Below, piece after piece: positions 1,930 through 51,800 of a DNA stretch of 64,000 nt. Source of the DNA: Protonemura montana (lineage: Eukaryota > Arthropoda > Insecta > Plecoptera > Nemouridae); the NCBI GenBank assembly GCA_947568835.1, contig OX387608.1, positions 5,370,001 to 5,434,000 on the forward strand, given 5' to 3'. Every line of letters begins with the position of its first letter. Within the stretch, counting starts at the first letter, position 1. Both the position numbers and the translations under genes were made by a program. A model generated the notes under the pieces. The model was not told the DNA's origin. It did not search any database and saw only the letters and a program-made list of their open reading frames with translations.

Positions 1930-2206
1930 AGGTTCAATGGTATGTACATAACGTTTGGTAGCCATGGAGATCGCCTGACAGAGCTTCTCAATTCTGCTAC
2001 CTAATGAAACCACGGGTATATCATGGCCTAGCATAGGAGGTCCAGTGGTAGATTCAACGTTTAGTAGCCATGGAGATGCTGAGATCGCCTAACAGAGCTT
2101 CTCAATTCTGCTATCTTATGTTACCACGGGTATGTCATGGCCTACTATAGGAGGTTCAATGGTAGATTCAACGTTTAGTAGCCATGGAGATGCTGCGATC
2201 GCCTGA
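1930..2206. repeat. tandem repeat, about 2.5 units of 106-114 bp
   Basis: A unit containing GTAGCCATGGAGAT, then GATCGCC, CAGAGCTTCTCAATTCTGCT, CCACGGGTAT and TCATGGCCTA, occurs twice in full and once in part. GTAGCCATGG recurs at 1958, 2064 and 2178, giving periods of 106 and 114 bp. The second and third copies share extra bases (ATGCTG) absent from the first, so they are the more recent pair. No coding sense is apparent. Confidence 0.85.
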
Positions 2207-32770: not shown

Positions 32771-33209
32771 TTATTATTATTATTTGTGGTGTTTAACGAC
32801 GCACTGTTTTGACATCTGGCCATGCGGCACTGGTCTAATGGCGTCGATGAATGAGTAGATGATGATGATGATGAACCTAACCTAGCCTAGAAGGGAGGAG
32901 AAATCCGGTGCCGGCACGTAGCCTATTCCTGTCGAAGAGCATCTAGGGGACCACCGGCTTAACGTCCCTTCCGAAGGACGGTACAACGCGAACAACAGGA
33001 TTCCTCCACAAATCCATGCTGTCGAGAGGTTGATAAGCAAGGCGAGTGAAGTTGCTGTACTAACTTTCATCCCTCCAACCTCACTCTCAAACAGAACTGG
33101 TCATGTGTATGATGGTCACCCATCCAATACCTGACTCAGCGCAGTGTTGCTTAACTTCAGTGAGCTAATGAGAACCGGTGTTTCCAACACGCCAAACCGT
33201 CTGGTTCGA
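32771..33209 (-). mobile_element. 5S-derived SINE, copy e, full length with target duplication
   Basis: This is the reference copy. On the minus strand it starts with a 5S-like head (GGAAACACCGGTTCTC, CTGAAGTTAAGCAACACTGC, GTATTGGATGGGTGACC), continues through the body with CTCGACAGCATGGATTTG and TTCGGAAGGGACGTTAAGCC, and ends in AAACACCACAAATAATAATA. AGGCAGCGAA flanks it at 32761-32770 and 33210-33219. At 439 bp it defines the family layout: 5S-derived polymerase III promoter, body, short-repeat tail. The 5S internal control words (box A-like AAGTTAAGCA and box C-like GGATGGGTGACC) are intact enough to be recognised. The frame at 32882-33070 is its translation and not a gene. Confidence 0.93.
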
Positions 33210-35248: not shown

Positions 35249-35531
35249 GCTCCGTTCAGCGAGAAAACATTTTTTTTTTCCGGTAAAGGCATCACCGGTC
35301 GTTTTGGGGTGACAGGTGTCTGTCATTAAAAAAAAAAACACTACTTAATCATATCCGCTGATGTCCGCCATTTTCCTTTTGCTCTGAAGCTTTTGTTGAG
35401 CAAATATGTTTGTTCGAACTATTATAAGAATTGTTCTACCAATAATCAGAACATAAGACATTTTTTCCAAGTATATTTTGTAATTTTGTAATTAAATACA
35501 AATTTTCATTGAATCTATGAGTTGGTAACAA
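35249..35531 (+). repeat. interspersed repeat family A, copy 1 (body)
   Basis: Words shared with 42180 and 61655 in the same order: CCGGTAAAGGCATCACCGGT, GGTGTCTGTCATT, CCGCTGATGTCCGCCATTTT, TTTTGTTGAGCAAATATG and TTCTACCAAT. No reading frame or terminal inverted repeat is evident. It runs directly into the 54-bp array. Confidence 0.8.
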
Positions 35532-35960
35532 TGCTGGGGGCAGTTCTTATGCTGGTATTTTCCCTAACGGGCTAGACTGTAGCAATGTAAGGGACAGTCC
35601 TTGTGCTGGTATCTTCTCTCACGGGCTAGACTGTAGCAATGTAAGGGACAGTCCTTGCGCTGGTATTTTCTCTCACGGGCTAGACTGTAGCAATGCAGGG
35701 GACAGTCCTTGCGCTGGTATCTTCTCTCACGGGCTAGACTGTAGCAATGCAGGGGACAGTCCTTGCGCTGGTATCTTCTCTCACGGGCTAGACTGCAGCA
35801 ATGCAGGGGCAGTCCTTGCGCTGGTATCTTCTCTCACGGGCTGGACTGTAGCAATGCAGGGGACAGTCCTTGCGCTGGTATCTTCTCTCACGGGCTAGAC
35901 TGTAGCAATGCAGGGGGCAGTCCTTGCGCTGGTATCTTCTCTCACGGGCTAGACTGTATC
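35532..35960 (+). repeat. 54-bp minisatellite, eight units
   Basis: Units of GGACAGTCCTTGCGCTGG, TATCTTCTCTCACGGGCTAG and ACTGTAGCAATGCAGG start (at CAGT) at 35541, 35595, 35649, 35703, 35757, 35810, 35864 and 35918; one unit is 53 bp. The first units are the most diverged and the last four nearly identical, so expansion probably ran from the right. Because 54 is divisible by three, a reading frame at 35763-36056 shows an 18-residue repeat, but the 53-bp unit breaks phase in the array and there is no other coding support. Copy 2 of family A carries a single diverged unit at the same position. Confidence 0.92.
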
Positions 35961-47165: not shown

Positions 47166-48320
47166 GTAGGGGTTGGGACAACAGCTGATGACGTCCTGAT
47201 AGTACTTTGGCTGTTAGATTTGTGGTGTGTGGCGTTTAGCTTGGCTTTTCGTAGAGTTAAACAAGTAGGGTACGAAAACACAAAGGAGGGTTGAAGTTTA
47301 ACCCCTGAGTTTAGTATCCATACCTATCTGAAATTTATGAATTTCGTGTACTTCATCGTCTGCAAATACCCATTGTGGTAAATGGACATAAAGCAATAAA
47401 ATTTAAATTATATTAAATTAAATTAAGATGATTAGAAGTCACAGATTGAGTTTCCAGAGTTTTAGGGGTTGGTACCAAAATGATTTATGGGGGCTACGCT
47501 TAAAATCTGCTTTGTTACTCCGGTCCAAGGTAGACGGTATGAGGTAATTACTTAAATTACCAAATAACTATGTGTGGTTCACATTCAGGAAATGTAAATG
47601 TAATTTAAAAGTATATATACTTTAAATAAGTACTTTAATAAGCTTAGTACTTTTAATGGCATTGCATTAATAAACAGTTCGAAACTGATTTCTTGCAGTT
47701 ACTTTTATATTTCTTATAACAGTTTTTAAAAAGTATTTGACTGATTTTAAGGTTAGAGAATTCTTTCTATTTGATACAAAAAAAAAGTAGAAATCTCGTT
47801 GAAATTAGTAAATGTTCTTCTTATTTGATAGAACTCTACAAAAAAAAAATCGATTCTCAAAACTGTCAAAAAGACCACTCCAACATAGTGTACAATTAAC
47901 GTTACTCTCGTTACATCAGCCGTTGTTTCATCCAGTTTTAAACAAATATCTCAACAACAACAAAAACTCCAATCACCAGTTCGCGTAACTCGATCCGTTC
48001 AATTAGCTTTATCAGGGCAGACAGAAGCAAAAAAAAAACACGGGGGCCGCTCGTCCCTGGCGGCCGACAAACGTTTTAAGTGCCATCTCGATTTGTTGAC
48101 AATAATCATGTTTGCCCAGCGTTCATCCAATAACCGTCACATCGGGACAGATGCGATGATGCGTAACCGTGCGTGGGTCTCACGCAGCGATGTTGACACG
48201 GATGTCGTTGTCAAACAAGACCAATCCCCGTGTAAATCGAATACTGAACTACATTTCAGCTCATAAAATGGTATGGTGTAGTATCTAGGGACGAACTGTG
48301 GTAACTAAAAACCACAAAAT

Positions 48321-48863
48321 GGTTTGACGTTTTGGAAACACACATGTCCTTATGAGATCACCAAAGTTAAACAACTCTGCGCTGGATCTGGTATCGGATG
48401 GGTGACCACCGAACGGTTCGGCGTGTTGGAAACACCGGTCCTCGTGAGATCACCGAAGTTAAGCAACATTGCGCTGCGTCAGGTATTGGATGGGTGATCA
48501 CCGAACGGTTCGGCGCGTTGGAAACACCGGTCCTCGTGAGATCACCGAAGTTAAGCAACACTGCGCTGGGTCCGGTATTGGATGGGTGACCATTTGACGT
48601 GTTGGAAACACGTCCTCGTGAGATCATCGAAGTTTAGCAACTCTACGCTGGGTCAGGTATTGGATGGGTGACCACCGAACGGTTGGAAACAAATGCTCTC
48701 GTTAGATCACTGAGGTTAAACAACTCTGCGCTGGGTTTGGTAATGGATGGGTGACAACCTTAATCCTCATCATCATCATCCATTCATTCACCGTCGCCAT
48801 TAGACCAGTGTCAACTGGCCCGTTGTCAACACGTAAAGCCTCACTAATACATCAATCAATCAA
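48321..48863 (+). mobile_element. SINE locus with five tandem 5S-like heads
   Basis: The head word (T)GAGATCACCGAAGTTAAGC recurs at 48354, 48446, 48538, 48620 and 48703, giving spacings of 92, 92, 82 and 83 bp. Each unit also has a GTATTGGATGGGTGACC-like box C and most have GGAAACACCGGTCCTC. After the fifth unit the sequence jumps directly to the SINE tail (CATCATCATCATCC, CCAGTGTCAACTGG, AATCAATCAA); the body is absent. These are not functional 5S rRNA genes, since 5' and 3' halves of 5S rRNA and a terminator are missing. Overlapping frames at 48367-48627 are by-products. Confidence 0.9.
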
Positions 48864-51800
48864 CTAACAGATTGATTGATATTAACCTGTATTGCGTTAC
48901 TTCAATTGAATTCAACCTAACATTAACAGAAAAGCAGACTTGCCGTTGATCTTTGCTGATAAATGTGAGACTGTGATCTCTAGTGACTCACCAGACAAGT
49001 CATTAACTCTTCATGGTAACACACGTTAACTCCCTCTCCTCCGGGTAAAATAGGTAAAACCATCAAAACGGTTACGATAAAACATCGTCTAAAAAACCTC
49101 ACTATACTTCAAATGATCGGCATGCCTAACATTACCACACCATGGCAGCCTATGAAATATAATCCAATCGTCAATAAGTCTTCAAGTGGGCGCTATCAAC
49201 GTGTAATCACCATCTTACACGAGTATATGTTTCACATTCGCAGAGAGCTGGTGGCTTGCAAATGAGATCGATATTTAGTGGTGGGTGTACGACATCGCTT
49301 CACGGGTGTGGTATATTGTACTTCATAACCAGGTGAATGGCCTAATGGACCACTTAGATATCAAACACAACCATGGTTTTGTCTGCTAACATGCCTAGTT
49401 CGCTGTACGAGATATGCTAAACGTAGGACGTACTTTTATTTCTAAATCAAGCCAGATAAGATTGATTGTTACGTATTCACGTAATTCGATTTCAATATGT
49501 ACAGGTATTTAAATTCTGTTGATATTGATCGTGTGTAAAAATTGTGTTTATATCCTGTTTCTTCACTCTAATGGAAAGCTGTTTGTGTAGCAGATCGGAG
49601 CAAAAGGTAGACAAGCTATGAAGCTCTGTTTAACGACGTTAGCTTCAGCTGTAAAAATATTGTCAGTACAGGTCTTATGAAGTGATGAGTGGGTCACCTA
49701 GGCTAGAACGGAGGGTCAGGAAACCCGGTGCCGGTACGTAGCTTTAAAGCATAAATGGGGCTAATGACTTCACGGATGTCTATGCTAAGCCTTGGTGTTT
49801 AGAGGGTGGACATCCGATAAGCAAGTTGCAGAGGAACCGTTGTATGGTAACTGTTATCCTTTCTGCCTGTAACTGACGTTTCTAGGGATGGTAGATAAGC
49901 TTCCAGTAGAAATATTTTCTAGCCCGGACCATCCCCATGATAATCCTGTAACTCGAGAGACGTCTGGAAGTGCGACTAATCCTACCCAAAAACCGCAAAA
50001 CAGACTTCTCGACTACCGTCCTCTGGTCCACCATTAGTCAGCCAATAGACCCTTGCTATGTAATCAAGCCCCAACCAATCGCCGGGGACGAAGCAGTTAT
50101 CTTTTGAACTGGACATTATCCAGTTCATAATCTATTTATTAATCAAGTTTAAAAGTGTACAAATCCACACGCATTAAAAAAATGAATGTCAAAAAGAGGT
50201 CAAAATGTCTCCATCGCTTCTCTTACAACTGGCGAAATCGGGAATCGATCATAGCGATGCTAACGCAATCCATCGACGGATTTCTGACCTAACACCAGTG
50301 ATTTTTTTTGCGCAGTCTTCACGCTAATAGAATAGATGAATGTATGCGATGAGTCAATGGTAGCCCCCACTGGATATAAGTTGTAGAAGGATGGCTACGG
50401 TAGCCCATAACCAATTAAGGTTAGAAACTTACGGTTGTAGCAATTTTTTCCTCATAAGGATGGTTAATTTGTGTACGCTTTGTCTGTGGTAGCCATTACC
50501 CCATAAGGTTGGCAGCGTTAGGTGGTAGCTATCCCATAAGAACGGAAAATCTCGGCACGCTTTGGCACGCAACGTCGGCTACCGTGCAAAATAGCAAAAC
50601 ACGGCAATGTTCAAAGGTAACAGAAGCGTTATGGTACTCACATAGCCGCCCGAAACTGTGGCTGAGTCTCTTCTTGAGGCGCTGCACGCGACTCAGGCCG
50701 CCCCCGCCCTTCTTATCACGCATCGTCACGCCTGCAAAGAACAACAATCAATTAGCAACGCCGGTCAAAGGTAATTGGTGCCGGCCAAAGGTAATTGGTG
50801 CCGGCAACAGGTCGATAGGTACCGGCCGGCGATCGTTCACCTGCCCGGGTGGCCGTATCGTGTACTGATGATAGATTTCTTGTTTCCCTTTCGAATTGTG
50901 CCGGTGATTCGTTGGACACTGGAATTTCCGTGCTGCGGAATTAAAATGTGGGGTGCTGAAATCATTAAATCTTCGTGTACGTAAATTTGCGTTTTCCTGT
51001 TATTACCGTCGTGTTACGCGGGCATAGCGCAACTGAAATCGATTTTTAATTAGGTGTGGAAAATTTTATCTGGATTTTTTTGTTTTTTTTTTAGATGCAA
51101 TACCGTGCGTTGGGAGAGAAACCGTGATGAATTAATTGATAGCAGGAAATGCATCATAAATGCAGTTGAAAAAATGTAATTATATAACCGAGGACATAAC
51201 GTGTTGCTACCACTGTATTAATCTATGTCAAAAAAGACTCTAATTGCTGGTCATAAAATATGATGGTTTTATGGTGCAGGTAGGAGGGTCTGCTGTAATA
51301 ACTTTGGGTCCTCATTACGTCAGTTCCGACAGGTAAGAGTGGATAACTGAATCAGCTGTGAGCTGGTTCACACTGCCAAGGTCACAGCTGATGTCATGGC
51401 TAGGTGACGCTATCTAAGCGGGCCGACTTTGTCGTGAGCTAATCACCAGGAAGCTGGGCGATAACTGCCCGAAAATTAGGTCAATCGTCTCGGTGGAGGT
51501 CTCCAGACGAAGGTTAATTTTGGGCCGAAAAAATTATCAGTGCAGCTTTCGGTATTGGAAAATTGTTCGTATATTCAATTTCTGTTCTACTGTTCTAACA
51601 TTGCACTAGAAACATTTGAGGTATCGAACAGTATTGTTTCTAGAGAAGATGGTCTGGAACGGCTTGGAATGCGATGGGATAGGAGACGGTCATTTCAGTA
51701 GAACTACTACAGAACGCATGTGAATCACGTATGGATCCCAGGAATACAGAATCACATGAATCACAGCTAGGAAATGGTTTGCAATTACGAGTCCGATTTT

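Follow-up and report, generated by a model that had tools for sequence, protein, structure and literature searches.

Tandem arrays of the 5S-derived head in a SINE family of Protonemura montana

SINEs of the SINE3 class have been reported from vertebrates and some insects (PMC7245038, cited here in part), and combine a 5S-derived head with Pol III boxes, an unrelated body and a tail, in dispersed copies with target duplications. The family analyzed here has all of these features in common with them; its head, however, occurs in tandem, in two registers and often in many units, which is not mentioned for SINE3 in the cited part of that source. Dimeric Alu offers a second likeness, being a SINE of two related monomers (PMC7245038, same part), but it is a fixed dimer with an A-rich linker, whereas the array described here changes in length. 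Among satellites, PcP190 of frogs consists of ~190-bp repeats with a 120-bp 5S-like region and a variable region (PMC11675491, cited in part): it is alike in that its tandem repeats include a region similar to transcribed 5S, and unlike in its repeat size and in that no SINE is named in the part cited.

In mouse L1, tandem promoter units (the A, Gf and Tf monomers) stand in variable number at the 5′ end, their promoter strength is additive, the first monomer is often truncated, and both unequal crossing-over and expansion during second-strand priming have been proposed for them (PMC6454616, in the part cited here). L1 is an autonomous LINE, its promoter is of the Pol II type and its monomers measure ~200 bp, while the present element is a non-autonomous SINE with a putative 5S-type promoter and units of 91–92 bp; at ~430 bp, it is too short to carry the ORF1 and ORF2 of mouse L1 downstream of its heads. 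Our best reading of these comparisons is that the family would represent a SINE with a tandem promoter, like the mouse L1 monomers. No description of tandem 5S heads in a SINE was found among the titles and abstract openings listed in the literature searched, which lay mostly outside subscription journals and thus provides weak evidence of absence. Overall, we consider it about 65% probable that the locus studied here is a decayed copy of a 5S-headed SINE whose predicted promoter region exists in the genome as a tandem array of variable length, shaped by both movement and growth.

Heads, tail and boundaries of the five-head locus

We followed up an original prediction for the window, i.e., the whole 64,000-nt stretch of DNA analyzed (C11:5370001-5434000), within a search space comprising the 258.5-Mb genome on 34 contigs. 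It had five 5S-like heads running into one SINE tail without a body between them, and this layout was borne out by TRF, by Rfam on head 3, and by the heads occupying 48311-48756 with a tail extending to 48861. The features are as follows, with an ordinary copy from the same window taken as reference.

48303-48310, + strand: AACTAAAA, probably the left target-site duplication, abutting +1 of head 1 and matching 48862-48869 at 7 of 8 positions
48311-48407, + strand: head 1, 84% to the head reference, with TTTT at 48330-48333
48408-48499, + strand: head 2, 92 bp, 96% to the reference
48500-48591, + strand: head 3, 97% to the reference; Rfam 5S_rRNA match at 48503-48616, 41.6 bits
48592-48673, + strand: head 4, about the first 10 nt absent, 92% to the reference
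48674-48756, + strand: head 5, a 9-nt deletion within the first 20 nt, 82% to the reference
48757-48769, + strand: direct head-to-tail joint without body; as an exact pattern, the sole match in the genome
48770-48861, + strand: SINE tail, with (ATCA)n at its end
48862-48869, + strand: probable right target-site duplication AACTAACA, directly after the end of (ATCA)n
32782-33203, - strand: ordinary one-head copy, taken as reference (head 33113-33200, body 32878-33113, tail 32782-32868)

TRF resolved the heads into an array of 92-bp units over 48321-48684, overlapped by a row of 82-bp units over 48517-48759, and head 3 scored as 5S rRNA above the Rfam cut-off. The complete plan of an ordinary copy is a 92-nt head, a body of ~238 nt and a tail of ~90 nt, and the one-head reference copy (33203-32782, minus strand) carries an exact 10-bp target duplication, TTCGCTGCCT. 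The five-head element spans 48311-48861 and lacks the body, whose central domain may resemble Deu or Meta domains. In simulations, a match like that of AACTAAAA and AACTAACA arose in those places with a probability of 0.6%.

The head was delimited against a true 5S gene of the same genome (C11:70-188, 116.7 bits). A MAFFT alignment of the two was gap-free over nt 1-60, and the head reference retained gene nt 41-60 and 79-92, which we take to be the box A and box C segments of the 5S promoter. About the first 18 nt of the head have diverged from the gene, and a second aligner introduced small gaps within nt 1-12, a stretch too diverged to fix the register alone; +1 was therefore placed by equal length and by target duplications. 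At one locus (L102), the target duplication ends immediately 5′ of ACC, which, together with equal length, identifies the A of ACC as the first base of the SINE, rather than GAGATCACC. ACC accordingly forms the start at 48311, 48408, 48500 and 48674. Defined in this way, the head is the counterpart of 5S nt 1-92. Body sequence begins after nt 92 (GACC), and in head-head junctions (GGTGACC-ACCGAACGG) +1 of the following head is attached at this very position. With a 5′ head derived from 5S rRNA by alignment, box A and box C segments kept, and dispersed copies bearing target-site duplications, the family fits a putative 5S-headed, SINE3-type SINE.

These boundaries shift the head starts originally given (48354, 48446, 48538, 48620 and 48703), which lie 28–43 nt late relative to the true first base at ACC. 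They also absorb what had been taken for a separate linker shared by all heads: GAACGGTTCGGCG(T/C)GTT is head nt 4-20, inside the first 20 nt of the head, and is complete at only two junctions (48408 and 48500), being mostly lost in unit 4 and interrupted by the 9-nt deletion in unit 5. Since it also starts the single-head loci L001, L002, L003 and L007, it is by itself no mark of a multi-head locus. The linker form ACCGAACGGTTCGGCG was likewise discarded as a head-head marker: it had 66 exact matches, and several of the 8 fetched were single-head 5′ ends.

The four longest units of the window copy differ from one another by 12.4% on average, above the mean of 8.6% between loci, which indicates an old array and no recent local burst. 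A TTTT such as that of head 1 (48330) may weaken a Pol III transcript begun there. The head-to-tail joint is unique in the genome as an exact pattern, from which decayed forms would escape; a partial loss of the body is nothing special, given that the six heads of L004 are accompanied by a short body-like remnant and a tail, and that most of the body is missing from L109. The window locus is thus an old, decayed copy of what is by its sequence a 5S-headed SINE with a repeated start. In our reading of its history, a five-head copy would have been inserted and its body lost, either through a deletion or because the reverse transcriptase jumped within the template. In essence the original observation holds, with its details displaced; the locus is unremarkable as an oddity and good as a pointer.

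Two tandem registers across the genome

The prediction had called for a genome search for further multi-head loci, with a sole locus pointing to a local event, and the window locus proved not to be alone. A 16-mer across the head-head junction had 1,002 exact matches, the first 100 of which (C1 to C4) fell into 78 loci, and a longer form allowing ≤3 mismatches had 2,037; three consecutive heads were matched exactly 297 times. At 37 exact places, a head leads into a body and is itself preceded by another head or at least its end, which is all that the pattern requires upstream: among the 20 of these places fetched, 15 had an annotated upstream head and 5 a short piece (L071, L072, L082, L085 and L086). 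The reversed control gave 0 matches for each of these four patterns. The suggestion of a multi-promoter SINE variant is therefore supported as a genome-wide state by the exact head-head junctions and by the 37 places at which such a junction leads into a body.

A second register, absent from the original prediction along with the abundance of arrays lacking body and tail, has a 91-bp unit composed of head nt 49-92 and body nt 1-47. It was represented by 10,079 exact pairs (control: 0) and is far commoner than the 92-bp head-head register: of 20,884 exact head-body junctions (control: 1), 10,079 are followed by another one unit later. The first 100 of these junctions, all on C1, formed 35 clusters with 60 of 65 within-cluster distances being multiples of 91. 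In 19 of the 35 clusters there were at least two junctions, so that the notion of ordinary copies as one-headed covers just part of what is seen. Some elements, e.g., L079 and L089, contain both registers, and each unit type, 92 or 91 bp, spans one set of box A and box C segments. In a selection of 20 C1 loci, picked from the first 100 of 35,306 matches by skipping visible 91-bp neighbors, 6 were 91-bp arrays and 0 were head-head arrays. Judged from these sequence counts, the putative promoter region of the SINE is tandem on a genome-wide scale and multi-head copies are common, i.e., the start of the element behaves like a growing and shrinking array and not like a fixed single unit.

The two junctions constrain how the registers may have been founded. 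The 92-bp junction joins +1 to nt 92, where the ordinary SINE turns from 5S to body. Because +1 is the end of the RNA template, its simplest source is a reverse transcriptase that jumped between heads, and we propose that the enzyme, having reached the 5′ end of a SINE RNA, probably continued on a second head at nt 92. The 91-bp junction joins body AAGTTAgtacAGCAAC to head AAGTTAAGCAAC in alignment; since the two are similar, mispairing of the head's AAGTTAAGCAAC with the body's AAGTTAgtacAGCAAC would be enough to produce it. Each junction would have arisen rarely, and template switching, already named in the original prediction, remains a good account of the founding junction from 5S nt 92 to +1.

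A quite unlikely extension of this idea is that a LINE reverse transcriptase jumps from the SINE RNA 5′ end to nt 92 anew for every copy. It would explain the choice of +1, for which a DNA-level event has no obvious reason; the 91-bp register, however, does not use +1, the joint shows no microhomology and keeps both ACC copies, and the higher-order repeats and local similarity of units described below indicate growth at the DNA level.

Growth of arrays and movement of multi-head copies

The length of the arrays changes after insertion, which is well supported. Two loci with flanks identical in a masked comparison, L047 (C12) and L049 (C8, an 890-kb scaffold), have 6 vs 5 heads, a difference of one 92-bp unit; the pair may reflect two haplotypes or a duplication in the assembly. 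Similarly, L069 and L070 (C1:20983000-20990000 and C1:22422500-22428800) are copies of one duplicated segment, 99.5% alike in the left flank and 94.5% between the arrays, with two multi-unit SINEs in opposite orientation that comprise 10 vs 9 and 13 vs 6 units. A foldback DNA transposon of inverted 91-bp arrays ~3.5 kb apart was considered and rejected, the L069 and L070 cases being this one segment copied.

Units also resembled their own array beyond expectation. For 92-bp units (41 arrays, 230 units, with 16 overlapping or duplicate loci set aside), the nearest relative lay within the same array in 49% of cases, against 2.6% expected; for 91-bp units (25 arrays, 126 units; 26 such loci set aside, as in the length comparison), the figures were 36% and 4.4%. 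Mean divergence within and between arrays was 5.8% and 8.6% for 92-bp units, and 4.1% and 4.8% for 91-bp units. Higher-order repeats are visible in some arrays; at C4:22197338-22198273, for instance, a pattern of five units recurs. Later unequal exchange, one of the original suggestions, gains from all three observations, i.e., the length differences between matching-flank copies, the closeness of units to their own array and the higher-order repeats. Under our preferred reading of combined movement and growth, arrays would thus have been lengthened and shortened by unequal exchange or slippage once a junction existed.

The same observations would also be expected from local tandem expansion alone, in which single-head SINEs insert, heads are duplicated later by slippage or unequal exchange, and multi-head copies are immobile. 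That account is further helped by the weak target-duplication scores of most tail-bearing head-head elements: just 2 of the 10 tested scored ≥7, a threshold reached by 14 of 37 elements overall and by 2.7% of 740 mispaired controls (28 overlapping or duplicate loci, and elements with a flank cut by the locus edge, were set aside). L089, one of the elements with a cut flank, has a duplication of 11 bp that lies in simple sequence and includes 1 mismatch. At L026, two heads, body and tail lie inside a perfect 12-bp target duplication (12/12), which taken alone would also fit a later duplication of heads, since heads duplicated after insertion would leave in place a target duplication that abuts an intact first head. 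Target duplications by themselves cannot, therefore, separate mobility from later duplication.

We nevertheless regard purely local expansion as unlikely, for three reasons. First, hundreds of loci share just these two junctions, whereas independent slippage would be expected to vary its breakpoints. Second, 16 of 52 head-head chains open with a truncated head and include a complete one further on, and local duplication of a truncated single head cannot yield a complete head; two of these chains, L006 and L088, have a tail. Third, at L071 and L082 an upstream-head end follows directly after the target duplication: GTCTGGGT and ATTAGGT, respectively, are followed by GACC and then by +1 of a complete head. 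This arrangement fits 5′ truncation of a multi-head RNA, although it comprises just 4 nt upstream of +1 and the search pattern itself demanded GGTGACC before +1.

Weighing against movement, truncated starts were seen not only in 20 of 52 head-head chains but also in 6 of 27 single-head chains (chain counts of 52, 49 and 27 throughout were taken with 27 overlapping or duplicate loci set aside). The truncation points of first heads cluster at reference positions 19-23 and 35-43 (~5S nt 22-26 and 38-46), which perhaps represent stops of the reverse transcriptase or alternative starts. With parts linked over distances up to 100 bp, 14 of 49 head-head chains extend to a tail and carry several units in tandem at the 5′ end of a tail-bearing element. 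Movement of multi-head copies is probable, and the retroposition of multi-head RNAs is less secure than growth. As we picture it, new copies would come from transcripts starting in upstream heads, and such starts would guard against promoter loss through 5′ truncation.

Head arrays without body and tail

Retroposition by means of the tail does not explain the arrays that lack both body and tail. Body and tail were absent within 100 bp from 31 of the 49 head-head chains uncut by a locus edge (34 of 49 by a 60-bp rule), in a sample biased to long arrays by its five-head query; at L004, L037 and L064, which the two rules treat differently, decayed body or tail lay more than 60 bp away. Exact counts also indicate that few arrays lead into a body (37 places vs 297 matches to three consecutive heads). 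As many as 14 units were counted in one fetched array. Another tandem repeat was present within the same 3-kb stretch at 18 of 27 head-head loci scanned vs 0 of 4 single-head loci, with units of 41, 47, 52, 67, 72 and 114 bp, among others. Finally, 60 of 75 exact-junction loci on C1, C2 and C3, from the first 100 matches listed and with no single-head control set, were in the outer 2 × 20% of the chromosome. Loose head arrays look like minisatellites, while the window copy has a tail.

Tail-less arrays, accompanying repeats and outer chromosomal positions would all be natural if a 5S-derived 92-bp minisatellite had spread first, and the SINE had later taken its head from it or merely adjoined it. 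We find this order of events very unlikely: arrays joined to both body and tail exist, and arrays and single heads share most of their departures from 5S, neither being, by eye, consistently closer to the gene. Carriage of all head arrays by a larger mobile element was rejected, as flanks were common just within small groups among the loci compared. These shared flanks are mainly other tandem repeats on differing sides, along with a near-terminal duplicated segment (L010 and kin).

Beyond the preferred reading, i.e., a SINE with a start that both moves and grows, we tentatively consider a broader but doubtful possibility: a Pol III SINE with a self-renewing tandem promoter, marked by two duplications and about half of the exact head-body junctions in arrays, whose tail-less arrays seed minisatellites. 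If so, each duplication would span a complete 5S-type internal control region and leave copies transcribable despite 5′ truncation, and one element would feed both the retroposon and the satellite parts of the genome, documenting a route from SINE head to minisatellites. With mouse L1 as the precedent for a tandem promoter, a SINE that repeats a 5S-type Pol III promoter, in two registers and at thousands of junctions, would be a parallel case based on a different polymerase. The natural series of unit numbers may then allow promoter dose, reverse transcriptase jumping and unequal exchange to be distinguished.

Several other repeats were observed alongside the head arrays. The start of contig C11 (C11:70-105743) carries true 5S genes, at first in a 9,508-bp repeat with three 5S per repeat, one of them reversed; this repeat is presumably linked to a larger rDNA unit. 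In the window, a 54-bp minisatellite at 35525-35958 (8 copies, 94% alike) had no match among the fetched loci. A 114-bp tandem repeat at window positions 1967-2204 is a dispersed minisatellite family, 91–95% alike in L051, L059 and L086, all with head arrays. Ten loci on C3, C5, C11, C12, C14 and C15 (L010, L012, L013, L017-L021, L024 and L025) share stretches of at least 3 kb that are ~95–100% alike and contain a fixed head/body/head fragment plus a repeat of ~118 bp, a size inferred from match offsets. The nearest contig end is no more than 1 Mb away from 9 of the 10 and 1.1 Mb away from the remaining one, so they are probably duplicated subtelomeric DNA.
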